Shown in pieces: positions 1 to 63,742 of a DNA stretch of 64,000 nt. Origin of the DNA: Deuterostichococcus epilithicus (Eukaryota > Chlorophyta > Trebouxiophyceae > Prasiolales > Stichococcaceae). Within the stretch, counting starts at the first letter, position 1. Each line of letters opens with the position of its first letter. Below the pieces are notes generated by a model that had not been told where the DNA came from, made no database searches, and saw nothing but the letters and a program-made list of their open reading frames with translations. A program made the position numbers and the translations under genes. The DNA is taken from positions 186,001 through 250,000 of the forward strand of contig JAVTLE010000005.1 in assembly GCA_033439295.1 (NCBI GenBank), in the 5' to 3' direction.

Positions 1-107
1 TCCTGTTCTACTTTGCAATCCTGTATTATCCTCTGTTCTCATGCTCTCCACTGTTTCTGGTGCTGATGCGCCTCAGTGGGAACCCGTGGACGTGTCCTCG
101 CCCGCAG

Positions 108-696
108 GCCAAGCCCACCAGCGCATTCTACCGCTCGCCGACGTCGGCCGGCGGCCGGGCGAGCGCCTGCAAGGCCTGCTGCCGCGCCAACATGTCGCAG
201 TACTTCGCGGTGCTTCGCGATAGTGCGCAGCCGGTGCTGGTGGCGGGCCACAAGGCGTGCTCGCGCTGCGGCGAGGTGAGCAGACCTGAAGTGCATGCAG
301 GGCTCATCCATGGGTTCTTTCAGTCCCCTTGCATCCAGCCGCCGTAGCCGCGCTTGTTCAGCCCCAAGCCTGCCTTTAAGCCTTAACCCTGGGCGTCAGG
401 CCGCCAGGACCCGGCCGTGAGCTGCTGGCGGCGTGTGGGGCCAGACTTCGGCACACGCCTGTGAGGCAGCGCCCGCAGTCAATAGCAGTCATGTCGCCTG
501 TGCGGCGCTGGCCCGTGCCAGCCTACCGACTGTGCCGTGTGACACGCAGACAAAGCCCCAGAGGTCCTACTACAGAAACACGTCGTCTCCGGACGGCACC
601 ATCAACGTCTGCAAGGCGTGTGTCCTCCGCCGCATGCGTGAGGCCCGGGCGGCAGCTGCGACGACAGCGCCGGCGGCAGCAGACACGGACAGCTGA
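108..696 (+). CDS. Zinc-module repeat protein 1, 3' part
   Basis: Two 3' exons of a gene that begins left of the window: 108-275 and 550-696, both phase 0, joined by gtgagc...cgcag. The first exon opens in the middle of a module (SAFYRS..., then CKAC at its second metal pair) and ends with CSRCGE. The second completes that module with SYYRN...SPDG and CKAC, then an Ala/Arg tail and stop at 694-696. The repeating pattern is C-x2-C-G-E, about 7 residues to an aromatic FY/YY, then DG-x4-5-C-x2-C, a four-cysteine treble-clef-like zinc site resembling the one in phage endonuclease VII-type proteins (resemblance by eye only). Function is unknown; nucleic-acid binding is a guess. The same module occurs in the genes at 1568-3565 and 38347-40219. 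The gene converges on the minus-strand member. Confidence 0.75.
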
Positions 697-8487: not shown

Positions 8488-11400
8488 ATGGTCAAGGCAA
8501 AATCGCAGAAGCTGTCAAAGTCGCAGCGGGCCTCTGCAGCAGCGCGGCTCGGAGAGGACAGCGAGGATGAGGTGCCGACGCAGCCGCGCAGAGCGAGCCA
8601 GGTGAGACTGATGAAAAACGTTTTCCACTCGGAAAGAGCTCTGGCGGTGGGGATGACGCTCAGGCAGCTTTGATCTCAGACAGTTGCTCACTTATCACGA
8701 CACGACCACGAGGTCTGTCGCTGCATCTGCCGACATGGCTGCATGCTACTGGCGCAGCCACGCATATCTGGCACGCTGCCATTGCCGAACTGCCTGCACG
8801 GCATCCTGCAGGGCGGCGCGGCGGCGGCGGGCGGCGGCGGCCGGCGGCGCGGCGGCTGGCGTGCGGCCAGCAATGTCTCTGAGGACCTGCAACCACACAT
8901 CAAGCGCGCCTTCATTCAGGTGTGCCTAGTGCACCACCCCAAGTCTGCCGTTGCGACTCCGGGATCCTTGTTCAAGTCTGCGTCCCTTGACACCCCTTCA
9001 TGCGCCATTGGTTGAGTGTTTGCTTGGTTCAGTGTTTGCAACCGGCAGGCGCTGCAAGGTCGCTCACATATCCCCAAGCGAAAAGGTGCCAGGCGTACCG
9101 CAACCTGCCAGGACACCAGCAACGCACCTGCTCAGCATTGGAGGCATCTGCCGCAGGGTGTGCCGGCGCCGCATCCGGCGCCGAGCGGCACACACGCCGC
9201 ACGGCTGTGTGCGTGGGGCTGTGAGCGAAGCCAAATACTTTGAGCGCGCTGACACTCCGGGACCGACCCGCTGACGGCAGTGTCCTGTCGTGCCCGCAGG
9301 TGATGATGAACCGCGGGTGCATGCCACAGGACCCTGCGCCGCCCGGCGCCGCCCGGCAGTACGACGAGTGTGCTTCCGGCATCTACCAGGAGCTCGCCGG
9401 CGCACCCGATGGTGAGACCAGCTCTGTTTGTGAGCGAGGATCGCGTCGAGCTTCAGTGAGATCAGCTCCAGGACCCAGCCGCAGTGCAAACCAGAACCGC
9501 AGTGCAAGACGGAACACACACAGCCTGCAGTGCTACGCTGCTGCTGGTGGAGTGATGGCTGTGCTTGGGCAGCGTCATCTGGGTATTCGCCACATGGGCA
9601 TGCGCTGCGGCAGCTGCCCTGGAGGGGTGCGACGCGGCAGCCCGCGGCCGGCCGCGACAAAGTCCGCCAGGCTGGACGGTTAGAGCTCACAGGTTGTTCG
9701 GCGTCCTGCGATGCAGGAGCCTGTGGTCGAAATGGTTCCCCCGATGCTCAAGGGTTTCAGAGGGTTGAGATGTTAATGCACATCCAAATGCCAGTCTCAG
9801 AACCGTTCTGGTGTCCCTGCTCCGCAGCCTCTGCCTTTGATGACTTCCTGGCCGACTGCAACAGCAACCTGGCGATGCTGGAGTTCCAGATACGGCGCAT
9901 CCTGTTCCCGGTGAGCCGCCCGCGCTGATCAGATTATAGACGCATGATGTCTCCTCCAGTCTTTACTGCCGCACCCCTTACGGCGCAAGACAGAGATATG
10001 GCGCTCGGCGCCTGTGATAGTGCATTCATCTTGCTTCAGCGGGCAGCACGAGTGATGGAGTGTTTATAAGTGCATTCTCCAGGTCTCCGACTGTCCTTGA
10101 GGCGCTGTCTCAGGCCACGAAAGTGCCGCCATGCAGCTACACCCTGGTGCCGTGCAGGGCTCCGGCACCTGGTACGTGGCGTTCGTCAACACAGCTGCGG
10201 ACGAGGCATCCAAGATGCTGACGCACAAGTACTCCCTCGCCGAGCTGGCCTACTTCAAGGCCCTGGTGCGCATCTTCCGGGCTTTTGCCGAAGTCAACTT
10301 TTGCCGAAGTCAACAAAGCAAGATTAGGACCAGCTTGAACCTGGTAAGGTGTGGTAGCATGGAACCAGCGTCGTTCATTACACAAATAGAGAGCTGGCCC
10401 ACTTTGGGCGAAGCTCTGATGCGCATGTTGAGGAACACTGCAGGGCATTCTCGCCCTGCTTTCCAGACGAAGCAAAGAGAGTTCTGTTGCAACATATTTG
10501 TGTCCAGCGCATGTCCTGATCAGGATCTGGGCATCCCCACGCCTTCCGGTACAGGGAGGAGGTGTCTGCCACATGCGATTGCGCCGACCACAATGGCATA
10601 CCGTGCACATCTGCGCTGCGTGCCTTCCTCCAGCATGCAGCCCTCCCACAACTCACAGGCTCACTTGTTTTGTTGAAAATTTTAAACTTTATGTCGCTCC
10701 AGGTGGAAGAGATTGCGGGACGGGAGGAGGCGGACTGCGATGGCGTGCCGCACATCCGCGCCACCGACGCACTCAACCTGGACGTGGACCTGCCCTCGCC
10801 GACGGCCACACAACTAGACGCCGCTCAGGTGTGTGCAGGTTGCACGTCACATGAATGCTGGCTTTTTCACGACACCGTGGTGAGTTGTTGCCCGGTCTTG
10901 GCAAGAGGGACCGTCACAACCTGCAGTTGCAGGCAGTTGCAGGCAGTACTGGTGGCAGCAGCACTGTCGATACGCGATTTACTGCAGTGTTGATGGGAGG
11001 CAGGATGAAGTGGCACCTGCACCGCGCCGGCGCATGCAGCCAACCAACAAGGCACCGCCGGGGGCATGGCCATGGGCCGCTGTGCCCTGATGGCGCAAGC
11101 ACTCATCGAACATAGTAATGACTGCTCCTCCCGCCTGCTCTACACCTATGCCAGACTCGCTGACTCCTCCTGCTTCCTGCTGCCTCTCCCCGCAGCCATC
11201 GCAGGCGTCGCAAGCGCGCAAGACGCTGAGCATGGAGGCGAAGCAGGCGGCGCTGGGCCGCTTCACGGAGGACGGCTGGATGGCGCGATCATCGCTCAAG
11301 GGCTATGGCATCATCGGGGTGGGGGTTACCTGCCTGCTTCTTAGGGTTCAGGGTTTCTTTGTTGTGACATCGCCGAGGCAGAGACACCAGCGCTGTGCAC

Positions 11401-13725: not shown

Positions 13726-15495
13726 ATGGCGGCCGTGGCGCCCCGTCAGCGCATTGCAGCAGAGGCGGGGCTGGAGGCGCTGGCCGCCGAGCTGGTGCGG
13801 CACTACAGGACCGTCGGGCAGGGCGCCGTGCCGCCGGCGCTCATTGAGGCGATTGGTGCGCCATCCTGCCCCCTGCCATCACTCGCCCAGGGTGCTACGC
13901 TGTTCTGACAGTACTGACAAGGAGTGACTTCAGTACCAGCTTCAATACCATATTGGTGACTTTAGTGGCCCTTGGCAGTGATCTAATGATGATGCGAAGA
14001 TGAGTCCTCTGGCTCACCATGCTGGCCGCTATGATGCCTCGTGCTGCGACTTGCCGGCATTCGGAAACGGCACCGTCACTTTGCAACCCCTGTGTCAGTG
14101 CATGACCATGGGTTCGCTGCGCCGCAGGGCTGCTCGTCGGGCACACGCTGGCAGAGAGACTCACGTGACAGCAGCGGCAAATTGAACTGCGGAAGATCAC
14201 TCCTCTGGAGGCCTCAGGATTCTCCAACACCTTTGCTGCTCCGATCGCAGAGGGCTGCCCTGTGGAGAGCACGTCGGCGGCGCGGCACTCGTTGCGAGTG
14301 CAGGTACAATTCGCACCCTCGCCCCTGCACGTCTCCCGTCCGCATGAGTCGTCCCCGCTGCTGCTGCTACAGGGCTGCGCGTGGGGCGCGCGCTGGCGGA
14401 GCGGCACACGCGCGAGCGGCCCCGCATGACCGAGCAGCTGGACGTCATTAAGTGGGCGTGCAAGGAGCTGTGGGGCGAGGTCTTCCGCAAACAGGCAAGC
14501 CCTGCTGCGCGTGCAGCTGCCTGTGAGGTGCACGTCATGCGGACGCCGCCGTACCGGGAGTGCAGCTGCCATCAGTCGGGCATGCAGGGCGGCTGCGCTC
14601 GCTCCGGGACGCCTGCAGAGCGTCGCGCATTGCACAGCACGACAAAGCAGAAGCGGCGCTTTTGATGTGTCGCTGCTGTGAGAGCGCCTGCCCCGACTGC
14701 TGTTGATGCCATCGAGATTCTGAATCCAAAACCCTAAAACCCGCAGGTGGACAGTCTGCGCACCAACCATCGGGGCACCTTCGTGCTGAAGGACAACCAC
14801 TTCCGGTGCGTGCTTCTTCATGCCTCGAATTCCTGGCGCTAGGTGTTTTCAAGGGTCCCTTTATGCCCCTACTAGCGCAGTCTCGGATGAGTGGTGCTCC
14901 GGGAACCATTGCTTCCGACCGTCCAGAGAGGTAGCCACCTGTTATGCATGTGTCAGCGTCGGTGGGCATCCGATTTAAGGTGACGCAACTGCTGAGAACC
15001 CGAATGCAACAGATACAGCGGTTCGTGGGCATCGAAGTCAAAACCACGATCTGCTATGAAACCTGGAACCTGAAAACCGCGCGGATGGAACCGGCAGGTG
15101 GACGCGCGCGCTGTCGACGGACGTGGCGGATGCAGGCGCGGCGGCGGGTGGCCCGCCGGCGGCGGAGGCGGCGCAGGACTACCTGCACCTGCCCTGTGCC
15201 ATTGTGCGTGGCGCGCTGCAGGCGCGCTCTTGGCAGCTGGCGCGCTGTCACATATAGAACAGTACTAACGATGTGGATCGAGGGCGGCATCGCCGCGACT
15301 CCGGGTCACGGCGCCTGCGGGCGCCGTCTGACCTGCAGCACTTTGGATCACAACAGCCTGCCAGGGCTGTGCAGCGGCTTGTCCCACTGCGCCCTCCGCT
15401 GCTTGCAGGCGCTAGGCGTGGACTGCGCGGTGGCGGCGGATGCGGCGCACCTGCCGGCCGTGGACTTCACCGTGGTCATCCGGCAGCCGCGGTAG
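13726..15495 (+). CDS. TRAPPC6: TRAPP complex subunit 6 (Trs33/Bet3 family)
   Basis: Exons: 13726-13855, 14373-14494, 14747-14805, 15098-15221, 15409-15495; 173 residues, the normal length. Diagnostic segments: GLRVGRALAERHTRERPRM, LDVIKWACKELWGEVFRKQ, VDSLRTNHRGTFVLKDNHFR and the end CAIVRGALQALGVDCAVAA ... FTVVIRQPR. These align with human TRAPPC6 over the whole Bet3 fold. The protein is a core subunit of the TRAPP vesicle-tethering complex that activates Rab1/Ypt1 in ER-Golgi traffic. Two introns use GC donors: gcaagc after 14494 and, less usually, gcgcgc after 15221. The second is forced by the RGAL/ALGV alignment and frame. The start ATG at 13726 is preceded by no other in-frame ATG in the exon. 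Confidence 0.95.
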
Positions 15496-22835: not shown

Positions 22836-25800
22836 ATGCTTGGTGTCGCCGCTTGGCCTGGCAGCCGGCTGCAGCCGATGCGGATGAGCCGCGGCGGCAG
22901 GCTGGCAGCACTGCTGCGACAAGCCGCCCGGACTGCCGCCCAACATGACGCGCCTGGCATGGGCGCCGGCGCTGCCCTCCCATGCCAGCTCACCAAGGCG
23001 GCGCTGCATGGCTGCAGCAAACATGGTTGCAGCCCGGCTTGCAGCGCGGGCCCAGCGCAACAACTGCAAATGGCGCTCAGCCGCGCCAGTGCGCCAGCAG
23101 GCATGCGCGGCAGCGGGAGTACAAGCCCGGCCATGGCCCTTCAGCGCGGCATGCGCACAAAAGCCGGCGCACGAAAAGCGGCGCCCAAGGGCGTGCCGGC
23201 TGCAGCCCAAGCTGATGTAGACGCCAGAGACGCTGCAGCAGGAGAGGCTCTAGCTGCAGACACGCCGCCGAAGGCCAAACGCGGCCGCCCGCGCAAGGCC
23301 AAGGCGGCGCCCGCCGCCGACGCACCGGCGGAGCTTGACCCCCTGTCCGATGCCTCCGCCACGGCGGTGATCACAGTCTCAGCCCCTGGCGAGGCAGCCG
23401 CGGCGCACGGCAAAGCCAAGCGCAAGCCGAGGCAGGTCGCCGCGGCGAGGGCGGCAGCTGCGGCGGTGGCGGTCGGCCCGGCGCCGCCACTGCGGCCGCC
23501 CCCGGACCTGGCCGCCTGCGTGCCGGCGGATCCAGGCCCCTGGGCCGCCATGAAGCAGTGGGTCGTGTTCTCTGACCTCCACGTCAGCCCCGGCACCGTC
23601 GGCGTGGCGGTGGAGGTGCTGCGGCGGGTCCATGAGGAGGCTGTCGCTCGAGACGCCGGCATTCTGTTCCTAGGTGAGAGAGTGTGGGCGGGGAAGGGCA
23701 GTGTTCCTGCGCCCAGGGCTGTACAAGAGCTGTGAGGTGTAATTGATTCAGGCATGGAGGACGAAGTGGCATCACACGGTGCTGGCCACTTCGCCCTGTG
23801 CATGCCAAGGACTCATGCCAGCACGTGTCCCTGCTTCAGCTCCAGTTTACAGCCAGTCTCTCACAAGTGCTAAGCCATCACCGGGCGGTGCTTGCAGCAG
23901 GGCCAGCGGCTTGCTGCGGCATGAGACGAAACTCGTTCCTGACGAGTCCCACATCGATTCCCATGACTGAAGTATGTTCAGACCCAGAATGCTAAACACC
24001 TGCAGGCGACTTCTGGCACGCGCGGGGCGCGCTGCCCGTGGAGCCGCTGAACGAGGTGCTGCGGGTGCTGCGCGGCTGGACGCAGCCCACGCTCATGCTC
24101 GTCGGCAACCACGACCAGGTGGCTGGCAAGCGAAGCTCGTAGAGTTCGAGGCTGGGCAGACTGGGAAGGTTGCGCTGTCTTGGACTGGATGCTGCTGCCG
24201 GTGACCTGGCCAGATGCCTGCTTGCTTTCGCCTCTGCCACAGACATGTGGGGAGTCGAAAGCAGAGTCAAAGCGATCTGGCCAAGTCATCATCGCCAGTT
24301 CACCACTCGCGAGGTTTTTACTTCAAGGCGAACTCTTCAAAGCCTTGCAACACACGTCAAAGCTCCCTACGCAGCGGCGATACACTGATCTGCAGCATGC
24401 CTGCAACTGCATGTACAGCGACCCATGGTATTGGCCGCTCGGCATATTTACCAGTGTTGCAAGTGAAAGGCGGCTGGTTGCGTCCAACCATACTCGTTGT
24501 ATGCACATTCCACAGGCTGCAGCCCATCGCCTGCAGGTGTCCCTGCACGCGCTGACGCCCGTTTGACATACATTCCAACACCCTGCGGCCACCGCCTGCA
24601 GGTGTCCCTGGGCGGCATGTCGCATGCGCTGACACCGCTTGCCGCCGCGTCGCCGGCCGTCCACGTGTTCGACGCGCCGGCGCGCTTCCTGGGTGCCCTG
24701 TGGCTGCCCTACCGCCGGGACCACGACGATCTGAAGGCGGCCATCGACGCCGCGGGTCCTGTGGACGCGGTCTTCGGCCATGCCGATGTGGTGAGCTCCC
24801 TACTGTTGCGCTCGTTGCCTTCGTCCCTGCCCTACCGCAGGATGATGATTGCAAGACGTCACTGACGCCGCCTGGACCGCAGGCGCTGTCTTCGGCAGCG
24901 CTGAAATGTTCTTTTTCCTTTTGGTTTCAATTGGCGCGTGCTCGCGGCATGCTTGGCTGCGGGAGGACTTCCTCTCGCAAAGACCAAAACGTGTTGCATG
25001 TGTGAGCATCAGCAAAAGCATGTGGCCCCAGCCCCCTCTGGCGAGCTCGGCGGCCAGCGCTGCAGGTCAAAGGGCTTGCGCTGCTGGGCGGCCAGCAGAC
25101 ACGGCAACCAGCGCGACATCTTGGGCGCCTCTGCCCTCCGTGGTCCCCCTGCATATGTCAGCAGCCAGGCGCATGAACAGATTGCACTCACAGTGCTCGC
25201 GGCGTCAGTCGGTTCTCAATGTGAGCTGCCACCGCACAGGTCGGCACCTTCAAGGTTCTACAACCCTTCTAGGTCTTAGAAACCTTGAAGGACTGGTGCT
25301 GTGCGGCGGCAAGACCAGACTTGAGGATGGTTGAGATGTTTCACTAGTTGAGACAATGCACGACTCAGTCCAGCTGCATGCTGGACATGTGCACAGATCG
25401 GCGCCTTCATGAACGAGGCCTACCAGGCGCAGCACGGGTTGCAGCCGGGCGTGTTCCCGGCCGCGGTGCCGACGTTCCTGGGGCACTACCACGTGCCGCA
25501 CACCGTGGGCGGATCCAACGTCCGCTATGTCGGCTCGCCCTACCAGGGTGCGCGATTCCAGTAGCGGCTCCTGAACCCGTTGCTGTTTGTGGCTGGGGGC
25601 GGTGTTGGGAAGTCCTCCTGGAGTGCTGCGCTCAGGGGGCTGCAGCACAGGGGGTAGGTCGTCAAGGCAACAGCCAGCTATCTCTCGCGTGAAGATGCAG
25701 ACCTTCAAAAGCGAGAGCGCGCCGTGTGGTGAGTGGACCGCAGCATTGGCCGCTCGCGATCCCTCACGGTGAAAGGCATTTCTAGGGTTTTGCCGTTTCA

Positions 25801-28800
25801 CCTTGCGGTGCGGCCCAGGCTTATGTCTCTGCTGTGCGGCAAGCTGGCTGACTCTTAGCAGGTTTCAGGGAAGTCTGGCGCTGCAGTATTGTGGTGCACA
25901 CGGCTTGCAAACCTGTGAAAAGCCTCGCTCGGTCGACTGCCTAACAGGCCTGTGTGACCCAGTAAACTTTTCGCTTGGTGGTGTCACCACAGGGTAGCTA
26001 TGCCGCCGCTGTCATACCCGAGGTGGCAACTCACAGGCATGCTGCAGCCCACTGTAGTCCCGAGGCACACACCTGGAAGCTTCGCTTCAAGCGCCAGGAT
26101 GCAGATGCACGTGCGAAGGAACATGGGAGCTGACGTATTTGACACAGTACAGTGATTTGACAGGTATGGGAAGACTTGGCATTCTCGTGCGACATATCCT
26201 CTCACATGTCCAAGTGTGCCGCTCGCCGCAGTGTCGCGCAGCGAGGCGGGTCAGGACAAGGCGCTGCTGGTGCTGGAAGCCGGAAGCTGGAAGCAGATCG
26301 ACGCGGTGCCGCTGGACCTCGGGCCGCGCCACTGGTCGGCCGCATCCGTCGAGACGCCGCCGCCGGCGGGGGTGCGGCGCGGCGACCGCCTGCGGTGGAC
26401 TGTCGCCGAGGCGGAGCTCGCGGCGGCAGAGCCGCACATACAGCAGCTGCGTTCGCAGGGTGGGCAGGCCTGGATTTCAGTGCCCGGCAAACTGTCCCTC
26501 CTGCTGCGTGCTCGTGAGGGTGCGGCAGACCAGTTCAGTGTGCTGCCAACATCTCCTGAGTACAAACAATGCCCAAACCCGCGTGCGAGATCACACAAAC
26601 ACCTGTGACAAATGCCACCGTGCAGCAGGCGTGGATGTGGAGGTGGTGGTCGCGCCGGCGGCTGCGCCGGCTCTGCACCACTCAGAAGCCTGGATGGCAG
26701 CAGGACGAACAGCCTGGCATCGGCAGCGATCGCAGGGCAAGCCGTAGCAGTGGTGTTTGACGGGAACAGCCTCTCTTGCATATGCAGGCGTGGACGTTGA
26801 GATCGTGGTGCCGCCGGCGGCGGCGGCGCCGCGCATCACCGACGCCGAGGAGCTGCCGCCGATGCAGCTGTTTGAACAGTACGTGGCAGCCCGCGGCCTG
26901 TCGCCCGAGGTGCCTCCCAGATGCCCACCTGCACACCGTGTCGAGGATTGCGTGGACTGAGGCCTTCCTGCGGACTCTGGCAGCGTTCCTCATGGCAAGA
27001 CATCGAGCGGCAGCGGCGCCGGCGCGGCAAGCGACCGCCCTCAGCCCTGTCATTCGCTGCACATCGTGACATCTGCACATGAAGGGGCCAACGCTGCCGT
27101 GGCCTCTGGGCCAATCAGCAGGGCTGCAGGTCGAAGTTGCGACGAAGCTATCCACCAGCAGAAGCCGCCCGGGGCCATCGAGTGAAGAACCCCGCGCTTT
27201 CGACGGCGGGCCATCGCTCGACCCTGCTGGGCGCCCTCTGCTGGCGATGGCCTTCGCCTGTCAAAAGTGGTCTGTTGGTCGCACTTTCTGCCGAGCTTCG
27301 GTCGGATTTCTTAAAATCGGATTCCCGATTCCTATTTCGATCACAGATCGAATTCCTAATCGGATGCAACCACAGGCGGCGGCCATGGGCGAGGCCACGC
27401 TGCGGGATCTGCCGGGAGGGCTGGCGGCGCAGCCGCGGTTGGCGACCGATGTGGAGTTTCACGAGGTGGAGCTGGACGGCTACGGCCCCTTCAGGTGCGC
27501 AATTCAATTTCAAAAACGAAACACAATCAATCGTTTCATTGAAAATAATTGCAATTTTCAAAAACACGTTCAGCGAATTTGCCACCTTTCTCTCACTCTG
27601 GACCTGTCGCTGAGCTTCACGCCTTTCAGCCTGCACCCATGCTGTCGTCTTGCCAGCCTCGCACATGCACCTGCCGGCAGGGACACGCACTTTGCGCACG
27701 TTTTAAGCGGCTGCCTGGGATGCAGCCGCTCAAATGCGATTTTTGTGCGTCCCTGCTGGCTTCAGGAAGTGCAATGCTCAAGAAGCACTGCCACATGCAA
27801 ACAGTCTTGTGGTTCACCCAAAGTCACTTTTCCTGTTGATATGCTTTTTATGCATAATTCTTCTACGCCACGGCCTACCCGCTGCCCCGGCGCAGCCTGC
27901 GGTCGTCAGGCGTTGCAGCTGCAAAGAGGCGGCAGCAGGCTCAGCTGCGCGACCTGACGCCGCATCGCCCGTCCGTTGCAGGGACGTCACAACCTATCCG
28001 CTCCACCGGCGCAGCCTGCGCGTCGTCAGTGGCCGCAACTGCGACGAGGCGGCAGCGGACTCGAACGGCGCAGGCAAGTCCGCGCTGGTGATGGCGCCGC
28101 TGTGGGCGCTCACGGGACGCTCAGACGCGCGGTCAGAGGTGCGAGGCAAATCTGTTCGGGGGTAGGGTTTAGAGCTTCAAGGTTCCCCAAGGACGGACGG
28201 CTGTGAGTGCGAGTGAGGGTTGTGGCAAGACGCAGCGCCAGCATGGGAGGGGTTGACGCTGGTGCGCCTGCGGGTTGTGGGATGCTAGCGCGTGGCCTGA
28301 GGAGCCGCAAACGCACCCAAACAGCTGCACTCCCGAGCTGCTGCCAGCTGCAAATTTTCTGAATTTGAGCGTTCTTCCTTGGGACAACCAGCCGCTGCAG
28401 CAGTGCAGGCGTGTTGCATGCAGCCGCCGCTGGCAGCACGAGCACTCTGGCCGCTCACGTATCCAAGGCAACACAGCCTGAGCCGTGCGTGCTTTGCCCC
28501 AGGGCGGCTTTGGCCGCGGCCTGACGAATGCGGACGTGGTGAATGATGACGCGGCGGCGGCGCGGGTGGCACTGCGCGGCCAGGTCAACGGGCAGCCGTT
28601 CCTCGTGGAGCGCACCGTACGGAGGTGCGATTGGAACCACCATTTGAGCAAGGGAGCATTTGGCAAGTCTCTCGTCATGTGGCCCGGGCATCTTCGTAGG
28701 GGACTGCGGGGGTAATGACGTGCAACAAAGCCAACCCATCGCTTGAAAGTTCAGCGCAGCGTTTGAGAGGTCTCTCGGTAGCCCCACGCTACAATCGACA

Positions 28801-31800
28801 AACTGCAACGTAGTGCCGTATCGAAGGTCAAGCAACAAGCGCCTGCAATACATGACCCGCTGCGCCTCGTGCTCGGACGTGTGAACATGGCGCTTTGATC
28901 ATGGACTTGCTGACGCTTCTTGCTACCAAGAGCCACATGATTTTCAAAACCTGTGCTGCAAAATCATGACCGTTACAGCTCGGGAGATGGCTGCATTGCT
29001 TCTGCTGCAGCTAGGTGCAGAAAGGAGCGTGCCATCATGCACCTCAAGAGCTCAGCGGCAACCGCAATGTCGTACACCAATATCCCGTTGAACCTGGACG
29101 TGCTTGGTCTTTGCGAGTTCAGTTTCCGATGCATGACTGCTGAAATGGGCTGCTCGTTGAGCTGGGCGGCATTGACAAGTTTATGCAGGCGACATGAAGA
29201 TGATGCAGGAGAGCATCAGCGGCGGCGGCAAGTTTGTGTGATCATTGCTGCTTTGGCACTCGTCGAAGTGCATCACTCTGAGCTGGGCTCCCCGATGAAG
29301 CTGCTGCCGATAGGAAACTCGCCCAAAAGATCATCACCAGCCTGCATCACGTTGCTGTACTTTCCTTGCTCTGCAATTGCAGGAAAGGGCGCGGCGGGCT
29401 GCGGTTCGAGCTGGCCGGCGCCGACAGGACGGCCGCGGAGATGAAGCTCACCCAGGAGGCCATCGACGGTGCCTTTGCCACGGACCTGCTGACGCGCGCC
29501 GTGTTCTTCGGCCAGACCGAAGTCAACGCCCTGCTGGAGGTTGGAAAATAATCCTTGAACAACTGCTGTGGTTCATGGGGGCACCCTCCGCTGCACCATG
29601 CATGCCAGCTGAGTTGGCAGCCGTGCGCGGCATTGGCTCTGGGAGAAGGACTGATTATTCTTCCGTTCGGTTACTTCCAAATCTGCAAGGTCTTCAGACC
29701 GTTCTTGCGAAGGCCAACGATCTGAAACCTCAATGGGTGGAGTTGGCCAAGCCTATGTTCGTGGGTTTCAAGTCGTGGGACAGGCCTCACCCTCCGTTTT
29801 TCGAGTTGAGATACATTCTCCACTTACCCGCACAGGCCAACGACTCCGATTTCAACGCGAAGCTGGCCAAGCTGGTGGGCTCCGAGGAATGAAACAGGCC
29901 TCGCTCTCCGTGATGTCGAGCTGAAATGGAAAAGAATAAACTCATTCTTTCGAATACTCGTGCAGGCCAACGACTCCGATTTCAAGGCGGAGCTGGCCAA
30001 GCTGGTGGGCTCCGAGGCGTGGGACTCTGCCCGCGTAGTCGCCGGCGCCCGAGCCAAGGCGCGCGGCTTTTGCTTGTGCACTCACGTCTGTGTTCACACC
30101 TGCACCCACCACTGTTAGAAGCCGGCAGCAGGGCGACAAAACATGCCCGCAGTTGCGGCTCCTGGTCCCCGGCCCGTGCCTGTGGTGCGTGGATTGTCGC
30201 CCTGCTGTCGCAAAATCAAAGTCTGCATCATGTAAGCTTGCGAGCAGCTCTGTGCAACGCCCCGCTTTTCTGCAGTCTAGCATCCCTTCTGCAGTCAAGC
30301 ATCCCTTCTGCAGTCAAGCGTCCTTCCTGGAGGCAACCTTGAAGCAGCAGATGCAACGACGCAGGCGGCGAGGGAGCGTCGCACGAAGCTGGACGGCGAG
30401 CTGTCGGTGCGGGGGTCGACGGCTGCAGTACTGCAGCAGAAGGTGTTGTGCTGCGGGCCTCGCTCCTGAAGCAATATCTAGACTTGTGGCATATGCGGTG
30501 TCGCAACAAACCTCAGCAGGTGTGCATTAGACACTCGCCTGCAGCTGCCAGTATTGCGCCGCACATGTGTTACAACACACGATGGCGCTTGTCAAGTCAC
30601 CACAGAGATTGGATTCTTTATGGCGCTCGTCAAGAGTTGCAACCAGATGCAAGGGGGCACTCGGAGGCAAGGGGGGCATTGGGTGGGCGGCTGCGGCGCC
30701 ACTGATGTCAGCGGCTGAGGTTCACGCCGCCGCATGCAGTGGCAGCTCGCTTTGCCATCCAATGCCCAGCATGATATCCGGTTGGTCCGACTGTAGCCTG
30801 CGCTATCGAATCTGATGGGCATATGCCCACATCGAGCAGCCGTCCCGGGTCGGGTCGTGGGTCAGGCTCGCGATTCGAACAGCGGCAGCTGTCAAGGCAC
30901 CTCCGGACTCCTCAGCCGACAGCCCCGATCCTCAAACCTCAACCCTCAATCGAGCGCAAGAGTCGAAGCAGCTTTCCTTCATGTACTTGCACGCTCGTGG
31001 GTGCCACTACCCACAGGGCTGGCCTGGGTAATGGTTGCCCGCAGGCCACTGCCTGCACAATGGGCGCTGCGGGGGCGCCTCTCTGGGGTAAGCCTCATCC
31101 AGCCTCAATCACGTGTCCCTGTGTGTGCCCTTTCTGCAGGCTGCCGCCGCTGCGGAGGCGGGCCGCTCGTGGGCGGCGCAGCAGCTGCAGCGCGTGCAGC
31201 GGGCGCGGGAGCGCGCCAACGACGCGGCGGCGGCGCGGAGCGCGAGCCTGGCCGAGGCTCAGCAGGTGGGCTCGGCCCTGAACCTGCATGTGTCGACAGT
31301 CAAAGGGTCGCGCAAGAGAACGGCGGCGACGCTTGCGAGGGGCCGCCCTAGTTGCGCCGTCCTCGCGGCTCTGCTCGAGTGCCGTTGCTCCCTGTACCGA
31401 GCAGTCGAGCCTCCTCTGCGCAGACCAGAGTTCATGGGTGGTGCCGGGCACATTCCCCAGGCGTGCCATCCTCGGGACGGCTGTGAAACCGACTGTGATC
31501 AAGGACCTCTGGTGGTGATGCGCAGTTGGTGATGTGCCGCAGGTTTGATTGGCATAACGTCCTCAGGACCCCTGGGTGTCGGGACCAAAGGGCTGGCGAA
31601 CTCTAGTGCTGCACTCCATGTGCATCGACACTGTGGTCCAACCCTCCAACCCGCAGTCGTGCCCAATGTGTCACGTGCATGGGCCTGCTCGAGACACAGC
31701 GCCGGATACTCTGCTTCTGACAGGCACGATGTTGCATGCGTGCAGGGCGCAGCCCGACTGCAGCTTTGGCTAAACACCGTCAGCGATGCCGCCATCGGCG

Positions 31801-34800
31801 GCGGCGGCGGCGGCGGCAGCGGACTGCGGGATGCCGACCTTGCTGCGGCGGGCGGCGCAGCAGACATCGGAGAGGAGGCACCCTCAGCCGAGGGACTGCC
31901 TCACGCCCAATCGCAGGTGGACAGCCAAGCACTTGTGCAGCCCATTCCGACATCTCACACCCGCCCTGAGCCGCCCATCCCGTCATCCTCACATGCCCCA
32001 GGACGCACAGACCTGTCACCGTGTGCACGTGCTGCTGGTCACAGCTAGCCTGCTGGGGCTCAGCAGGAAAGGTAGATCAAGGTAGATCTCTCTGTTGATT
32101 TTTTCGCACCTCTTGCAGGCGCCTTCCGACACGGACGTCACCGCTCTTGAGGCTGCCGCCGCTGTGGCGGATGGGGCGGCGGCGCCCATCGAGCAGGAGC
32201 TAGCACGCCTGCAGGCCGGCCTAGACGAGCAACTGAGCAGCTTCTACGAGCTGCGCGGCGCCTTGCAGGTTTTCTCTTTTCGGATCTGTTTGCTCGAGTT
32301 CGTTGAAGGCGGCGGAAGATGCATTTCAAAGCCAGTATGCCTGGCCATCGCAGGTGTCTCCCTGCTATTCGCATGTCTGTGCTTGCGCCCGTTCTTGCAG
32401 CAGGGCAGCCGGCTGATGCGCCTGTGCTTCGCATGGCCCTCCACGTGCCTTGCTGGTACCGCCTCAGTCGTGATATTTCCGGTTCGAGCCGGACCTGCTG
32501 CAGGCAATGTGTGTTTGTTCGGTCGCAAAGTGCAGAAACTGTGTGTTATCTAGCCAGTGCAGCTGCTCACGAACAGCCCACGCCTGGGGTGACACAGACC
32601 TGCACGCCTGGCTCAGCATCGGAAGTGCTATGGTATATTGTGCCTCATCTTGAAGAAAGATAAAATTCCCGGCAGGCGGCGCAGCAGCGGCGGGACGAGT
32701 ATGCTGCGCTCGGCGACGGGAGCCACGCCCGCGCAGGGGACGCAAACGGCTCGAATGGTGGCGGCCCCGCAGCCGCCGCCGCCGCCGTGCTTGGAGGCTC
32801 CGGCTCCTTCGGCGTCTGGGCTGCTGACGAGGCGGCCCCAGCAGCAGCGGCGGCGCAGGCGCAAGTCGCGGTGTGCGACCGCTGCCTGCAGCCTGTGGAC
32901 CGGGACACATTCATCGCCAACCTGCAGCGGCTGCAGGTGTGGCTCGCCTCTCCCGGTCCTGCCTCGTCCGGCTGGCTTGCCGCCTCTCCCTCCACTATAC
33001 TGTTTGGCTGTATGTGCCGTTTGGCTGTCGTGTCAGAGCAGATCACAACTCCACCGTTTTGAGGCTCCCGCCTGCTGAGTGTGGTGCTTTGCCAACACCG
33101 ACATTGGTCAACGGGTGCCTCGGCTGTCGCAGGCCGCAATTGGTATGGACCGCATTCAGCACACCCAATTAACGGACTTGGCATCAGCAGCTTTCTGATG
33201 AACCCTGTGCCGCTCTGGCGTCCAGAGGCCAGGCCAGGCGCAATCACAACGTTCCTTTTCTGGTATAGATTTTCCCAAATGTGAATCCACCTTTTCTGTA
33301 TCAACTCTTAAAATCCATGACATCGGCACAGGCCGACGTGAGCGCCGCTGAGGTCGCGCTAGAGGCTGCGCGGCGAGCCGGGCAGGAGCAGCGCGCAGCA
33401 ATCAGCAAGGTGGAGTGGCGCCTGGCAGTTGCGCGCCAGGCGGCGGAGGATGCTGCAGCACGCTTGCAGGTGCGCACAGGCGTAACAATTGACAATCTAC
33501 CTTGGTTGACATTGGGTAAAATGAGGGTAATGCTGTCTGGAGAGCCTGCGTGTGCTGCGGTTGGGTGGTCAGGGTGTGCTGTGTTGGCACCCCTTTGCGG
33601 GGCTGCCTGCTGCCTTGCACGACAGGCAGTTGAGAACGAGGTGCAGAGTCGGAACCCTAAACACTGAGCAGTTCCTCCTGGGAGCTGCAGGCGGCACGGG
33701 GTGCGCGGGACGCGGCGCTGCGGGCCGAGGAGCTGCGCCTGCAGGAAGCGGCGGAAGCGGCGTGGCGCTCGCAGCAGCGGGCGCATGAGGCGCAGCTGGC
33801 CTCCATGCGGTGAAGCGCTTTCGGGTTTAGGGAATCCTGGATATCGCGTCAATCCTTGCGACAGTGGGCTGACACTACTCTTTCAGCGCAGTGCCTTGCG
33901 GCCCGTTCATCATGCAAGTCAGGGCTGTCACTCGATGGCTGCCTCCCAACAGCCAGCCATGGGCTGCTCTGCCGCCGCTGATGTCGATGGCATCACGGGC
34001 GGCAGATGGCCACCTGGCAGGTTCTCGAGAAAGTCTGTCAGTAGTGTCACCCTGCAACGGTGCTGCATGCTCGAGATCATCTGCCGCGATGGCATCAGAC
34101 TTGTGCACAGGGTCCTCCTTGTTCATCAGTCGCAGGTAGTGGTTGCATGCCTCGCGTCAAGCCTCGCTGTCGGTCCCATGTATTGGGGCTGCCATCCGTC
34201 ACCCCACTGACACTCCGCCGGACACCACCACTGTTTGCACAGGGCGCGTGAGGCGCTGCAGTCGCACATCCACGCCGCTCGGGACGCCTGCCGCCGCGTC
34301 GCCGCCGCCGTCGCTGCCGCTTCAGCGGGCGAGCCGGCGACTGGCCGCGCCGCCGCCGAGCGATCTCAGCTGCTGGCGCCGCTGCCGGCCGGCGGCGGCC
34401 CCAGCGGCGGCGCCCTGCAGGATGACGAGGTGGCGGCGGCGGCGCGGGCAGCGCTCGCGGCTCTTGACGCCTCTGCCTCCGCAGGCGCGCAAAGCTGTCG
34501 CGTGGTATTTCGGGCAGAAGCTGCGGCGCTGCCGCCAGTGGGCACGCAACGTCAGCTGCATCGCCAGCTGCATCGATGCACCTTCAGAAACTGCACATCA
34601 TTATCCCTTCTGCAGCGGCGCTCTGGCTGCACTTCCCATCAGCATGACCAACCTGCTGCATCCTGCAGGTGCGGAAGCGGCAGCAGCGCAGCAGGAAGCG
34701 GCCGCCACCGAGTCGGCGGCCAACCCGCAGCAGGGCCGCGCCAAGGAGTTCGAGGCGCTCCTGGCGGAGCAGCAGGCGGGCATCGACGCCGCGTCCGCGC

Positions 34801-37659
34801 AGCGCGCCGCGGCAGCTGACGAGGTGGGTGAGGATCGCATCCGGTGCGGGGGCGGAGCGGACAGAATAGGTTCGTATCGGCAAGTCAGCAGCAGGCAGTC
34901 TGCTTTGCCGTGGAGTGTGTGGTATGAAACATCTGCATCAAGCACATGGACAGTGACAATCAGGGCATGTTCGGCAGGGGCGATGCCAACCACTCGGGCC
35001 TGTGGACCCACTTCGGACGTTAGGGCAGCACTCTATCACCCTCGCACTTATCTCCCCTCACACTGAGCTGCTTTGACAGTCAAGAGATTCTGGCGCACAG
35101 GAGGCGCATGCGGGGGAGCTGGAAGACGCCTTTGGCGGCGGCGGCATCAAGGGCTTCCTGCTGGAGGGGGTGCTCGGCGCGCTGCAGGTATGAGCAGGCT
35201 GCACGCAGGCTTTTGAAACCAGGTTCGGGGGATGACAGGAAGCCTTGATATCTGCCTCGAAGCAGTGCAGCAGGCATCTTTGAGTTGTCGGCTGCACCCG
35301 CCAGCATGCGCCGCCCCTTGGCGCCGAGGGCTTGCCGGCAGTCCAGCCATGCTCGGCGCATCGGCATGGCTGGCATATCAGCGTCGACTGGCCCCAGAAG
35401 TTGAAGGTGTCTTCCGTTGGTACCTTGAATCGACACAACCAAGTGCCAGCTGCACCGTTCGAAGGTTGTGTGGCAAGCCAGCGAGCCGGTGCCAGCCTGC
35501 TGCTTGTCGGAAGTTTGTGTCAGGGCGCGCACAGCAGCAGGTGGTGCACAGACGCCATGTGCGTCCAAGCTTGGAAGTCGCCGCAAGAGGAGCTACCTGT
35601 CGCAGGAGTGCGCTGGCACCATGCTGGCGCATTCTTATTGATGATTAAATATCGGCTTGTCCAATGCATGGGCACCCTCGTCTTACGCACTCGACTTGCA
35701 TTTTGATGCTGTGGCGGAGGAGCACATGGGAGCCGTGTGGCTTTGCGCCAGACACCTCGCCGGCAACGCTGTTCGCATCAGCCTCAGCTCCACCCCTACG
35801 TGTCATTGAGGCACCAACCAGGCTTGCGCCCAACGCACAGGAGCGCACGGGCGGCTACCTGGCGCAGCTGTGCGCGGGCACCACGCTGGTGCTGTCGGCG
35901 ACGCGGCCGGCGGCGGGCGCGCGGGGCCGCGCAGGCGGCGCCGAGATCGACAAGATCGCCAAGACCGTCACTGTGCGCGCACCGGCGGGCGCCGACGGCG
36001 AGGTAGGGGGCCTGGTGCTGCAGCGCAGCCGCCATCGATCTGGACACAATTGAATGTGAGCAAGCATGGCAGGAGGAAGATAGACTCTGTGACGGGCCCA
36101 TCGCGTCCGTCCGGCGCTTGCCGGCCTGCACCGAGATAACCCCCCAGCAGCCCCAGCAGCCGCAGGCTGTCAAGCTGCCGTGCCGGTGCGGGAAACTGCA
36201 TTGACGACGCGCTGTTCATTAAATGGTCCTGCGCCCATACCCTGAGGCGTTGCTGCGCCCTTAACCCTGCTAAGGTGGCGCCGGCGCGCGAGCGGTCGGT
36301 GCGGCAGCTGAGCGGCGGCGAGCGGCGGCGCGTGGCACTAGCCCTGGCGCTGGGTTTCGGCGACTTGGTGGCGCAGCGCGGCCGCCTGCGCTGCAACCTC
36401 ATCGTGATGGACGAGGTGGGGGCCTGCAACAACGAAACACGAGCACGACGGAACGACTGTTTCATTCTGGGCAACACCTACAAGTCGCCCGGACAGCCCA
36501 GAATAGAACGACGACTATACCATCCTGCCGAATGCTCGCAAGTCGTCCGGACGGCCCATGGGGACCACCCTGGCGCGACAGCCTCCGCTGCGCCATCCTT
36601 GCTGCGTGGAACGGGGCGGGCGTCCGGGCAAGGGATGGTTCCCATACATGACAGGTCAGGAATTGGTCGACCGCAGCTGTCCGTCGTGCTCGACGGAGCA
36701 GAGGATCTCGCAGGAGGGAGGTTGCGGGTGTTGCTCGATGCGCGACCACAAACGCTGTACACAGCCTGTGACGCGCCTGGCTGGGCCGCCGGCGCAGCAA
36801 GCTCTGCTGGCTCGCCGAGGCAAGGTCTCAAGCCAGACAGTCTCACGAGCATAAGGAGCTTGTTGAGGGGCTTTTGAGGGACTTGTCGGACTGGGAGCAA
36901 GATGCTCAGTCGCCAGGCGCGGGCGAGCCAACAGGGAATCGGCAACCCTGTCGACAATAGCGACAGGCTTCGACCAGCGAGGTTGTCAATGTCATCCTGT
37001 GGCCCCTATGCGCCTGCGCCTCTGAGCAGTGACCATGCGCGCTTGAGGGGTGCTCGAGCCTGCAGCGCCATGTCAAGCCGACGAGCATAGCACGGCTTCC
37101 GCCATCGCAGATCGCGCTGCTGGGCCTGCAGGTTGGCAAGGAGGGACGCGCGTTTCGCACTTGTGCCACTTCAAGTCCAACTGTCCAACTCACGTCTGCA
37201 AAAACGCTCCTTTGGCAGCATGCCGCAGGCACCGCAGCACCTGCAGACAAGATGTGTCTGTGCCGCCACTGCGCCGCCGGATGCTGCATGGAAGACAAGA
37301 TCACCTATTGGAAGTCACAAACCTTTTCCTTGCAGTCGCAGCTGCTCGGCATCTCGAGTCGGTGGGCCGCCTATGCGATTTCCATGCTCTGCGCCTTGCC
37401 GGGCCTTCTGACTGTGCACTCAAGCAGACAGACTCTGCTGTTCAACTCTTGCTGAAACCCACATGTCACTGCATGCCTGCAGGTGCTGCAGCACCTGGAC
37501 GAGGAGGGCTGCTCCCGCGTCGCGGCCGCGCTGCGGGCGCTGCCGCAGTCCAGCGTGCTGGTCGTGGGCCAGGCGTCAGGCTTCGCCAGCCGCGCCATCG
37601 ATGCGGAGGACACCGTCGTCAAGTCCGGCGGCGCGGCGGCCATCGAGCTCGGAGCCTGA
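22836..37659 (+). CDS. SbcD (Mre11-like) nuclease fused to SbcC (Rad50-like) ATPase with zinc hook
   Basis: About 24 exons, near 1468 residues. SbcD half: 22836-23673, 24006-24118, 24602-24790, 25397-25547, 26232-26459, 26788-26909. SbcC half: 27376-27494, 27982-28138, 28503-28624, 29383-29539, 29966-30058, 30314-30442, 31140-31265, 31746-31916, 32119-32268, 32676-32936, 33332-33469, 33691-33809, 34243-about 34545, 34669-34823, 35101-35187, 35841-36002, 36275-36415, 37483-37659. The N-terminus is Arg-rich and organelle-type, with an AT-hook-like KRGRPRK. Nuclease motifs: SDLH (about residue 247), GDFWH, GNHD, FGH, GHYH. ATPase motifs: SNGAGKS Walker A (about 617), FFGQTEV, LSGGERRRVALA signature (about 1374), CNLIVMDE Walker B, HLDEEG D-loop. 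Ala/Glu/Arg-rich coiled coils flank a CDRC zinc hook (32874-32885, about residue 1022). Exon 26788-26909 (...GLSPE) joins 27376 (AAAMGEATL) in phase 0, with no TGTAA between. SbcCD/Mre11-Rad50 process DNA ends and hairpins. The donor near 34545 is unsure. Confidence 0.88.
24536..24563 (+). pseudogene. Ghost copy of fusion-gene exon 3 start
   Basis: gcctgcag followed by GTGTCCCTGCACGCGCTGACG, 66 nt before the real exon at 24602 (GTGTCCCTG...CATGCGCTGACA). It reads VSLHALTPV against VSLGGMSHALTPL: the same peptide with four residues missing, then a stop. Confidence 0.8.
26629..26695 (+). pseudogene. Ghost copy of fusion-gene exon 6 start
   Basis: After cagcag the intron reads VDVEVVVAPAAAPAL, against VDVEIVVPPAAAAPR at the real exon (26788), 159 nt downstream. 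Many differences are at third codon positions, so this copy seems to have been coding for some time before it decayed. Confidence 0.8.
27863..27945 (+). pseudogene. Ghost copy of the Walker A exon start
   Basis: The intron before the P-loop exon (27982) holds a copy of its first about 80 bases: CGGCGCAGCCTGCG is identical and GAGGCGGCAGC recurs, with small indels between. The copy stops short of the Walker A codons. Confidence 0.75.
29713..29889 (+). pseudogene. Two ghost copies of a 93-nt fusion-gene exon
   Basis: The real exon 29966-30058 begins ANDSDFKAELAKLVGSEAWD. A near-identical copy (about 52 of 54 bases) lies at 29836-29889 after cacag, reading ANDSDFNAKLAKLVGSEE then stop. An older copy at 29713-29770 after aag reads ANDLKPQWVELAKPMF...SWD. 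The graded divergence suggests successive duplications. Confidence 0.85.
30273..30320 (+). repeat. Triple tandem copy of a splice acceptor
   Basis: The unit ttctgcagtcaagcatccc occurs three times in a row with small changes. The last copy supplies the acceptor of the exon at 30314, so the splice site is present three times within 50 bases. Confidence 0.85.
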
Positions 37660-38346: not shown

Positions 38347-40219
38347 GTGACTGCGGCATGGCCAGCGGCCTTCGGGCGCTCAATCATCCGACCGCCGCCG
38401 CATGCCTGCTGTATGCTCCCACGAGTTTGCGGCTCAGCAGCTGCTGCTGCACCGCAGGGCGGCAAGCGGTGCGCCCGGTGCGAGGAGACATTCGCGCTGC
38501 GCTACTTCCCGCCGCATGCGGCGCTGCCGGACGGTCACTCGGAGTTGTGCTGGGGGTGCAGGTCTGAAGAGAACCAGCAGCGCTTCCCGCGCGCCTCCAG
38601 GCACGCGTCTGCAGCTCCCATTCTCGATGCTGAGTCCCAGACGAGGCTGCCGCACGCCACCATCATGACCGCAAGGAACAACAAAGCCGTCCATCGATGG
38701 TGTGCACGACCGCCGACAACGCTTCACACGCGTATGTGCTGCCGCAGGCGGCGGACGGGCGCAGCCCCAGCATCAAAGGGCCATCCACCGACCAGCGCAC
38801 CGCAGTTCTGCCGCACCTGCGGCACGCTGCTGCCGGCGCGGCACTTTTCGATCGCCGCGGCCATGAAGACCGGCAGGTCGTCCGCCTGCAAGGCGTGTGC
38901 TGCGGCCGCGGCGGCGGCGCGGCGGCCGCAGCTGCGGGCGCGATGCGCGGCTGCGCCGCCGCCGGCGGGCGCTTCCAGGGCATGCCTGGAGTGCCGCCAG
39001 ACGCTGCTGGTCGACCAGTTCTATGCAGGCGAGTGTGAAGGGTTAGGCGCTTGCGCCCCGGCATCCATGTGGTACCCACATACCTGTTGACTTCCCCCAA
39101 TGCAGCACGCTGTTCCGCAGTGTCAGTGTTGCTGCCCCTCCACACCACAATGGTGTCAAGAGGGATCTTACAACAGCAGCAGGCTCCAGGGTGAGGTTTG
39201 GTTTCATCGGAGGCCATGCTCATTGGCCGCTGCCTGCTGCCGCAGAGCCCACCGGGCGTGCCGGGCTGTCAGCGGTGTGCAAGCAGTGTCACAAAGCGCG
39301 CTCGACAGCGTACCGCCAGGTGGGAGGCGCCCCCGCTGCAGCTGCCTCGTGCCCGCCTGCATTGCTGGCAGCTGCAGACGCGCCAGAGAGGGACCCAGCA
39401 GCCATGTTGCACATATGGCGGCAGTCCTGCAGTCCACGTGGCACAGGGCACAGGATCTAGATGTAGCTCACAAACAAGGCCCTACAAGAAGCAGTATGTG
39501 CTTGGCTTGGGCTTCGGCCCAGCGACCTGTGGCTCGACAACATCCAACTCGAGCAGCATTGGTCACCTGAGGTCAGGCCTCGTGAGGACCATTTCAGCGC
39601 CGATGCGCTGGCGATGGTGACCGTTTGGTCTGCCATTATCGCGAGCACGTTGGTGCCTGGCTAAACCCTAAAACCTGGCCGCCGTAGGCCCGCCGTCCGC
39701 CGCGGACGCCGCCGCCGGAGCAGCGCAAGTGCCTGGTCTGCCGCGAGCTGAAGCCAGCATCTGAATACGGTGGGGCCTGCAACAGCATGCCCTTGCGGTC
39801 TGCGTTCCCATATGCAACAGGGGGCGCGGAGCGCAACAAGCACGTGCCGGCCGGTCGCATGAAGCGGTTCTGATGGCAACATGCGAGCAGCCTCTCCTAG
39901 GCAGCAAGACGTTGTCAACAGTGCTCAAGCGTGTGGCATCGGCTCTGCCTCGAATTCACTTACCATGGGGTTTGTTCAGCGCAATCAGGCAAATAAAAGC
40001 CCTCGTTTCGGGAGATCACAGAGCGCTGCCCCTGGTGTCAGCTGTGCTCATGTAATCATGTCTCCCTGTGCAGTGCGGGAGAGCGGCACGGCGCACGGCC
40101 TGCGGAATGTGTGCAAGGCGTGCGATGCACAGTCCTACCTCTCGCGCAAGCCCGCAGCGCACGGCACAGTGCGGCTGCAGCCGCACCACCGTGTCGGCGG
40201 CGGCGGCGGCAGTGGCTAG
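38347..40219 (+). CDS. Zinc-module repeat protein 3 (four modules)
   Basis: Exons: 38347-39028, 39246-39319, 39688-39769, 40074-40219 (stop 40217-40219); all junctions keep frame, about 327 residues if the ATG at 38347 is used. Modules: CARCEETF...LPDGHSELCWGC; CRTCGTLL...KTGRSSACKAC; CLECRQTLLVDQFYA joined across an intron to EPTGRAGLSAVCKQC; CLVCRELKPASEY joined to AHGLRNVCKAC. All sixteen cysteines are present. The protein is rich in Ala/Arg between modules and ends Gly-rich. The segment between modules 1 and 2 (38558-38800) may contain an intron, since it reads less like protein. The first intron has a GC donor (gcgagt). An acceptor-like ccgcag sits at 38460, so the first coding exon could start there and the real start lie further left. 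Function unknown; same family as the two genes at the left end. Confidence 0.78.
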
Positions 40220-63179: not shown

Positions 63180-63742
63180 CGCGCTGCCGCGACTGCCGCG
63201 CCGAGACCAGCTGGCAGCTGAATGCGACTTGCGGGGTGGCAGAAACAAAACGGGTCCTGCTGCAGTCCTTGTTGCACAGATCCGACGGCTGTGGATCAGA
63301 AGAGGTTGCCGATCCAGCAGCAACCTGCCTTCCGAGGTGAAACTGCACCAGCAAATAGCGCAGAACCCTGCCGGTGTACTGCACTGCGGCCTTGACGCGA
63401 TGCCAAACGGCGAAGGGGTGCTGTTGTTGTACCAAGGCGATTTTTGTGCAGCGAACAATACAAGAGCGTGTGTCTGACAATGCCTGGATTTCAATTCTAC
63501 ACCAAGTTCTTTCAAACAGCCGGAATGGAAGCAGCAGCTCACGTGCATCACCTGTCGAAACCCTTCCTCTGCTTCTGACAGCACCAGACTGACCATATCC
63601 ACGCAGTCAAGTTGAAGCCGCAACATCTTGTGTGAGCAGTGTTCGACGCAGATTGGAAATCAATATCGAACGCTCGCCAATTGGTGCCGCGATGTTTGCC
63701 TCGCGTTCTTGTTTGTGATACAGTCAGACTGAAGGCACAGAT
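63180..63742. other. Divergent spacer between GMPS and the right-edge gene
   Basis: 563 nt between divergent start codons, so probably the promoter region of both. Minus-strand frames run through it upstream of the GMPS ATG but add no conserved sequence. No clear promoter motif recognised. Confidence 0.4.

Follow-up and report, generated by a model that had tools for sequence, protein, structure and literature searches.

A green-algal gene for a probable nuclease-ATPase in a single chain, one of the phage-like, non-canonical Mre11/Rad50 fusions

Does this stretch of green-algal DNA carry one gene in which an SbcD/Mre11-like nuclease is joined to an SbcC/Rad50-like ATPase, or two genes that lie in tandem, and to what kind of nuclease-ATPase would the product belong? 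In the usual Mre11/Rad50 complex the nuclease is docked at the root of the ATPase coiled coil, in a 2:2 architecture. A summary of this architecture is given in the excerpts of PMC3175470. We analyzed a window of 64 kb (61% GC), by which we mean the whole stretch of Deuterostichococcus epilithicus DNA presented here, and assembled the exons of the candidate gene from reading frame, splice signals and similarity.

The resulting model runs from an ATG at 22836 to a TGA at 37659 on the + strand and comprises 24 exons that encode 1421 amino acids with no internal stops. Exon GC3 is 0.85, and the 23 introns are 190–1067 nt long, with a median of 426 nt. Exon 1 (22836–23673) encodes a basic leader (aa 1–238) and the start of the nuclease with its SDLH motif (aa 246), exon 2 (24006–24118) carries GDFWH (aa 280) and GNHD (aa 313), exon 3 (24602–24790) continues the nuclease with FGHAD, and exon 4 (25397–25547) contains GHYH (aa 409) and GSPYQ. 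The capping region follows in exon 5 (26232–26459) and ends in exon 6 (26788–26909), which also encodes the first helix of a helix-loop-helix (HLH). Nuclease, capping region and HLH together extend from aa 239 to about 559. Beyond the junction intron (26910–27375), exon 7 (27376–27494) encodes a possible second HLH helix, a linker that we assign to 13 residues (aa 560–572) and the first ATPase strand. The ATPase N-lobe (aa 573–755) continues through exon 8 (27982–28138), with the Walker A motif SNGAGKS (aa 614), exon 9 (28503–28624) and exon 10 (29383–29539), whose FFGQTEV we take to be the Q-loop, and ends in exon 11 (29966–30034), which has a weak donor (GTAGTC).

The first coiled-coil arm (241 residues) is encoded by exons 12 (30365–30442), 13 (31140–31265), 14 (31746–31916), 15 (32119–32268) and 16 (32676–32936), the last of which also carries the CxxC hook (CDRC, aa 997–1000). 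The second arm (233 residues) is encoded by exons 17 (33332–33469), 18 (33691–33809, with a weak donor), 19 (34243–34501) and 20 (34692–34823). This coiled-coil part was modelled from frame and splice signals, not from relatives, and the Gly-rich exons 14–16 as well as the boundary between the 3' end of exon 19 and the 5' end of exon 20 are uncertain. The ATPase C-lobe (aa 1234–1421) begins in exon 21 (35101–35187) and runs through exon 22 (35841–36002) and exon 23 (36275–36415), which holds the signature LSGGERRR (aa 1328) and the Walker B motif CNLIVMDE (aa 1356), to exon 24 (37483–37659), from the D-loop LDEEG to the stop. Both motif sets and the hook, as listed in a sequence-only reading of this DNA that preceded our analysis, are present, in order, in one spliced frame. 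Also in exon 24, at aa 1393, the sequence reads VVGQ, with Gln at the position of the H-loop His; the three phage relatives looked at read ITH, ISH and VSH there.

Family searches gave a consistent picture for the two halves. Against PHROGs, the nuclease half matched an SbcD-like family (1e-23) and the ATPase half an SbcC-like family (7.3e-30). In Pfam, SbcC_Walker_B was matched with 28.4 bits (cut-off 27) by a stretch that spans exons 22–24, while SMC_N, AAA_23 and Metallophos were matched below their own cut-offs. Because PHROGs and Pfam match both halves, the resemblance is more than a chance one. The NCBIfam models of SbcD, SbcC and prokaryotic Mre11/Rad50, a collection that contains no eukaryotic models, scored far under their cut-offs (28.7 bits vs 77.65 for sbcd, 37.5 vs 478.5 for sbcc). 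Sequence matches to solved structures were weak (SbcD, 4.5e-4; SbcC, 0.0014, ranked behind EttA proteins), and the ATPase N-lobe by itself matched no solved structure at E up to 1. The seven positions that we take to be the metal ligands of Pyrococcus Mre11 (D247, H249, D281, N314, H377, H410 and H412) are all kept. Three of the seven are named in the excerpts of PMC3175470.

Whether the halves form one gene is decided at the junction. The phase-0 splice without a stop that had been proposed there is borne out by the 1421-codon model: exon 6 closes in phase 0 at 26909, and after an intron of 466 nt exon 7 opens, likewise in phase 0, at 27376 behind CCACAG. The missing TGTAA, which had also been brought forward for a single gene, is indeed missing and carries no weight, because TGTAA is scarce (14 copies on the whole + strand of the window vs about 28 expected from base composition) and the next one lies 2.4 kb past the stop of the gene. 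Compared with the 22 other introns, the junction has an unremarkable acceptor, which outscores 13 of them, and a weak donor, GAG/GTGCCT, which still outscores 4. The weakness of this donor is one of the points in favour of two tandem genes, a nuclease that ends at the TGA at 26958–26960 and an ATPase that begins at an ATG nine bases inside exon 7 (27385), the context of which looks good by eye; moreover, most of the phage kin are split, and in one of them (L180) the two ORFs overlap. We analyzed the region with a codon model trained on the exons and introns of this same gene, and the coding signal drops at 26909 and returns at 27376, exons 6 and 7 scoring 0.77 and 0.80. Reading through after exon 6 adds 16 codons, to 26957, ahead of the TGA, and this tail reads as non-coding: it scores -0.75, vs an exon median of 0.57, and scores this low occur in 8 of 1056 leave-one-out exon windows and in 32% of 6544 stop-free intron windows. 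Upstream of exon 7 the frame is open back to 27070, again with non-coding scores (-0.53 for 27079–27375 and -0.98 for 27253–27375), and an ATPase begun at 27385 would have about 25 residues ahead of its first strand.

The fold of the nuclease end offers a second view of the same junction. Free phage nucleases terminate in a helix-loop-helix; the possible second helix of the window protein (PE/AAAMGEATLRDL, the slash marking the splice) spans exons 6 and 7, and in a MAFFT alignment exon 7 lies opposite the C-terminal end of L101, a free phage nuclease. We compared the 119 open continuations of exon 6 with seven relatives at their HLH ends. The 27376 acceptor came 6th by summed similarity (6th, 32nd, 9th, 53rd, 36th, 18th and 35th in the single comparisons), and the read-through required by a separate nuclease gene came last. 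With an HLH profile-HMM built from split phage nucleases, HMMER reported 23 of 151 candidates, and the 27376 acceptor was not one of them; exon 7 aligned to the fused relative L100 no better than shuffled sequences (1845 of 5000). These mixed comparisons are only suggestive and count against the read-through more than they prove the 27376 acceptor. Fusions already in print for Micromonas and a moss (excerpts of PMC3175470) also argue against two genes, an arrangement that we consider quite unlikely here. From the open frame and the codon signal, one gene with an in-frame spliced junction, as the sequence-only reading had it, is likely, with an SbcD/Mre11-like nuclease preceding an SbcC/Rad50-like ATPase in one frame; the canonical two-gene arrangement is likely absent from this locus.

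We then asked which kind of nuclease-ATPase the gene resembles. In a tree of 66 nuclease rows the eight canonical SbcD rows stood apart with 100/100 support, although these rows all come from one bacterial phylum and the choice of rows, by phage-type searches, favours phage types. The window sequence fell among the phage-type rows on a long branch and was paired (93/91) with L076; since this partner is another long branch, the window has no firm sister. By sequence, then, the gene appears to lie outside the canonical clades, as do members of the fusion kind, and the kin that could be detected are of phage type and do not belong to canonical SbcCD or MRE11/RAD50.

Most of these kin are split. 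Among the matches listed, the best-scoring relatives were split phage SbcD/SbcC pairs in two ORFs (PHROGs 100 and 77), represented by L101 and L180, with nuclease scores of 95 and 92 bits and ATPase scores of 96 and 87 bits, respectively, compared with a nuclease score of 77 bits for the fused L100. A query of nuclease plus N-lobe matched 640 GenBank phage records, none of which matched >80% of the query in one place. One-ORF genes were found nonetheless. In Rhizobium phage RHph_TM30, gp240 is a single annotated gene of 959 aa with both domains (motifs by eye), and a query from the viral contig L063 aligned to this phage in one piece, from the nuclease through Walker A. It is the only Rhizobium phage record that we count, because RHph_TM21B lacks an annotated gene where the match lies and its ORF there is only 412 residues long. 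Listeria phage LMTA-57 (1009 aa) was likewise set aside as a firm precedent: contig L036 carries a very similar ATPase in a separate ORF, so the LMTA-57 fusion may be strain-specific or a matter of sequencing.

In IMG/VR, both domains were found in one ORF in two of 80 loci retained out of at least 346 relatives in a first scan (L063 through a similarity screen and L066 through a motif screen), in 2 of the 80 kept from at least 138 relatives in a second, one of them the L063 contig again, and in none of five new loci in a third. The three contigs concerned (L063, L066 and L100) give no measure of fusion frequency, because the samples were chosen by similarity to a nuclease pattern. L063 is truncated by the end of its contig; L100 is 1008 aa long from its ATG and adjoins an ORF that looks RecA-like by eye. 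These one-ORF genes, together with that of RHph_TM30, have the same domain order as the window gene, lack introns and are 21–35% identical to it. L100 and the window protein have GDFWH, GNHDQVSL and GSPYQ in common, whereas L100, unlike the window protein, has no full Walker A motif (by eye).

Searches with the window protein alone matched six stretches of the viral_contigs set, none of which was confirmed, and found no relative among plasmids at E up to 1e-3. Degenerate DNA patterns on viral_contigs picked out no stretch for Walker A and two for Walker B, neither with a detectable relative. In genome_contigs, 1 of 129 stretches was confirmed, an open stretch of 219 aa that resembles the nuclease alone. 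The same bacterial genome contains a 1033-aa frame (L098:1033–4131) that matched neither nuclease nor ATPase queries; it has an N-terminal metallophosphoesterase and a part that by eye resembles a NACHT-kind NTPase, and is perhaps a defence protein.

An AlphaFold2 model of the fused relative L066, computed from an alignment of 14 rows of which two included the nuclease, had a mean pLDDT of 72.9 and a pTM of 0.46, with pLDDT <50 over most of residues 157–322 and in the linker 354–362. Helices at 323–333 and 342–353 are placed directly ahead of the first ATPase strand (364–374), and on docking the model says nothing sure. Foldseek against viral models returned 143 matches at E up to 0.001. Among the 50 listed were proteins of 1193–1389 residues from Harvfovirus, Yasminevirus, Catovirus, Tupanvirus, Pyramimonas orientalis virus and Tetraselmis virus 1, which we infer to be fusions from their length and alignment span; the name of the Tetraselmis virus 1 protein, 'DNA repair exonuclease SbcCD', was taken as a further hint. 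Their low TM-scores (0.21–0.37) are as expected, because the arms are long and flexible. The hosts of the last two viruses are presumably green algae.

Several introns contain copies of exon starts just upstream of the real exons, 73–92% identical with weaker copies included: 29825–29887 repeats 29955–30017 at exon 11 and runs into a stop, 26625–26669 repeats 26784–26828 at exon 6, 27865–27942 repeats 27984–28062 at exon 8, and 24524–24558 repeats 24589–24623 at exon 3. Such copies may have arisen by exon duplication and then decayed, or may be left over from intron gain. Taken with the Gln at the H-loop position, the long branch and the phage-type kinship, they could mean that the locus is degenerating or was recently inserted by a virus and holds no working gene. 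That explanation is very improbable given the intact frame, the complete set of metal ligands and ATPase motifs, the high exon GC3 and the 23 introns, and the surroundings of the gene also argue against it. Pfam matches nearby are to cellular families: Tim44 (4575–4799, − strand), TRAPP (14375–14560, + strand), a GMP-synthetase-like GATase (62483–63203, − strand) and, in an exon-like stretch at 10149–10280, the SMC5-6 subunit Nse1 (23.7 bits, cut-off 23.3). With neighbours such as GATase, Tim44 and TRAPP, the window has the look of normal nuclear DNA. Scanning it with Rfam and for tRNAs produced no matches. Repeated CxxC...CxxC stretches that resemble zinc ribbons by eye occur downstream of the gene (38821–40200) and at the left end of the window (99–257); one of them, searched against Pfam, had no match at E up to 0.05.

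Together, the gene structure read from the sequence, the motifs, the phage-type kinship and the lack of coding signal in the two-gene alternatives make it probable that this is a nuclear, intron-rich gene in a GC-rich genome encoding a single-chain nuclease-ATPase of the phage-like, non-canonical fusion kind.

Where such a protein would act is less clear. The leader is basic, with one acidic residue in its first 100, and it includes the AT-hook-like motif that had been pointed out before, as KRGRPRK (aa 148–154; 23277–23297, + strand); when aa 1–238 were searched against Pfam, nothing matched with E up to 0.05. The one test of its description as an organelle-type leader gave no backing: its amphipathic moment is not above that of sequences shuffled from the same residues (in 280 of 2000 it was at least that high). 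Import into the plastid or mitochondrion, where the same fusion would act on organelle DNA ends, is a possibility that we lean against: the basic leader suits it, the amphipathic moment does not, and an AT-hook would fit the nucleus equally well. Basic residues need not mean import, because the phage fusion L100 also starts with a basic stretch. In nearly all the published cellular cases, according to the excerpts of PMC3175470, separate MRE11/RAD50 or SbcD/SbcC genes exist beside the fusion, so a different role for the fused protein is likely; action on plastid or mitochondrial DNA is a guess. A rather doubtful extension would be that the green lineage retained a phage- or virus-derived single chain for processing DNA ends in an organelle, separately from nuclear MRE11/RAD50, and that the H-loop Gln in this chain alters the coupling of ATP hydrolysis to cutting.

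As with the compartment, we infer docking in cis, pairing and activity. By analogy, the fused chain most likely works like the usual complex, with each nuclease seated at the root of the ATPase to which it is fused. The terminal HLH of the nuclease would dock on the coiled-coil root of the same chain, connected to the first ATPase strand by the 13-residue linker, and two chains would pair through their ATP-bound heads, perhaps also through the CxxC hook, to give the equivalent of a 2:2 complex with the stoichiometry fixed at 1:1. ATP binding would close the heads, and ATP-driven movement would allow the nuclease, with its metal ions, to process DNA ends and hairpins by cutting or trimming them. 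What a fusion might gain is this fixed stoichiometry together with joint expression. A natural single-chain 1:1 enzyme of this kind would be convenient material for studies of nuclease docking at the ATPase head.

The fusion had been thought not to be described, which is wrong: Yoshida, Claverie and Ogata (2011) list, in the excerpts of PMC3175470, 13 Mre11/Rad50 fusions, Mimivirus R555 and twelve others. The eukaryotes among them include two Micromonas species (green algae), Physcomitrella (a moss), Phaeodactylum (a diatom) and two slime moulds; the rest include plasmids of two Clostridium kluyveri strains, a Deferribacter megaplasmid and a Bacillus phage (excerpts of PMC3175470). The window gene therefore extends a published series instead of opening a new one, and with it another green alga probably joins the sporadic carriers of covalent nuclease-ATPase fusions. 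Orthologues that are always two separate genes would have spoken against a fusion; the green-lineage fusions in these excerpts, if orthologues, are not of that form. Viruses, plasmids and transposons were suggested there as the source of the fusions (PMC3175470), and the phage-type kin of the window gene fit this published idea of viral carriage. Some Ostreococcus viruses carry a Rad50-domain gene for which no Mre11 part was found, as stated in the excerpts of PMC12906663. Among open-licence PubMed Central papers we found no other report of such a green-algal fusion or of its cellular location.

Set against known systems, the window protein has the fold-defining motifs in common with canonical SbcCD and MRE11-RAD50, which, unlike it, are encoded by separate genes. 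With the fusions of Yoshida et al. it shares, as far as the excerpts of PMC3175470 go, a single chain in which the nuclease precedes the ATPase, as well as kin outside the canonical clades; the putative short linker, 13 residues by our assignment, would agree with the nine to twelve estimated there. Mimivirus R555 and the window protein both have GDxxH in place of GDxxD, and whereas R555 has Asp for one of the ligand His residues (excerpts of PMC3175470), the window protein keeps all seven.
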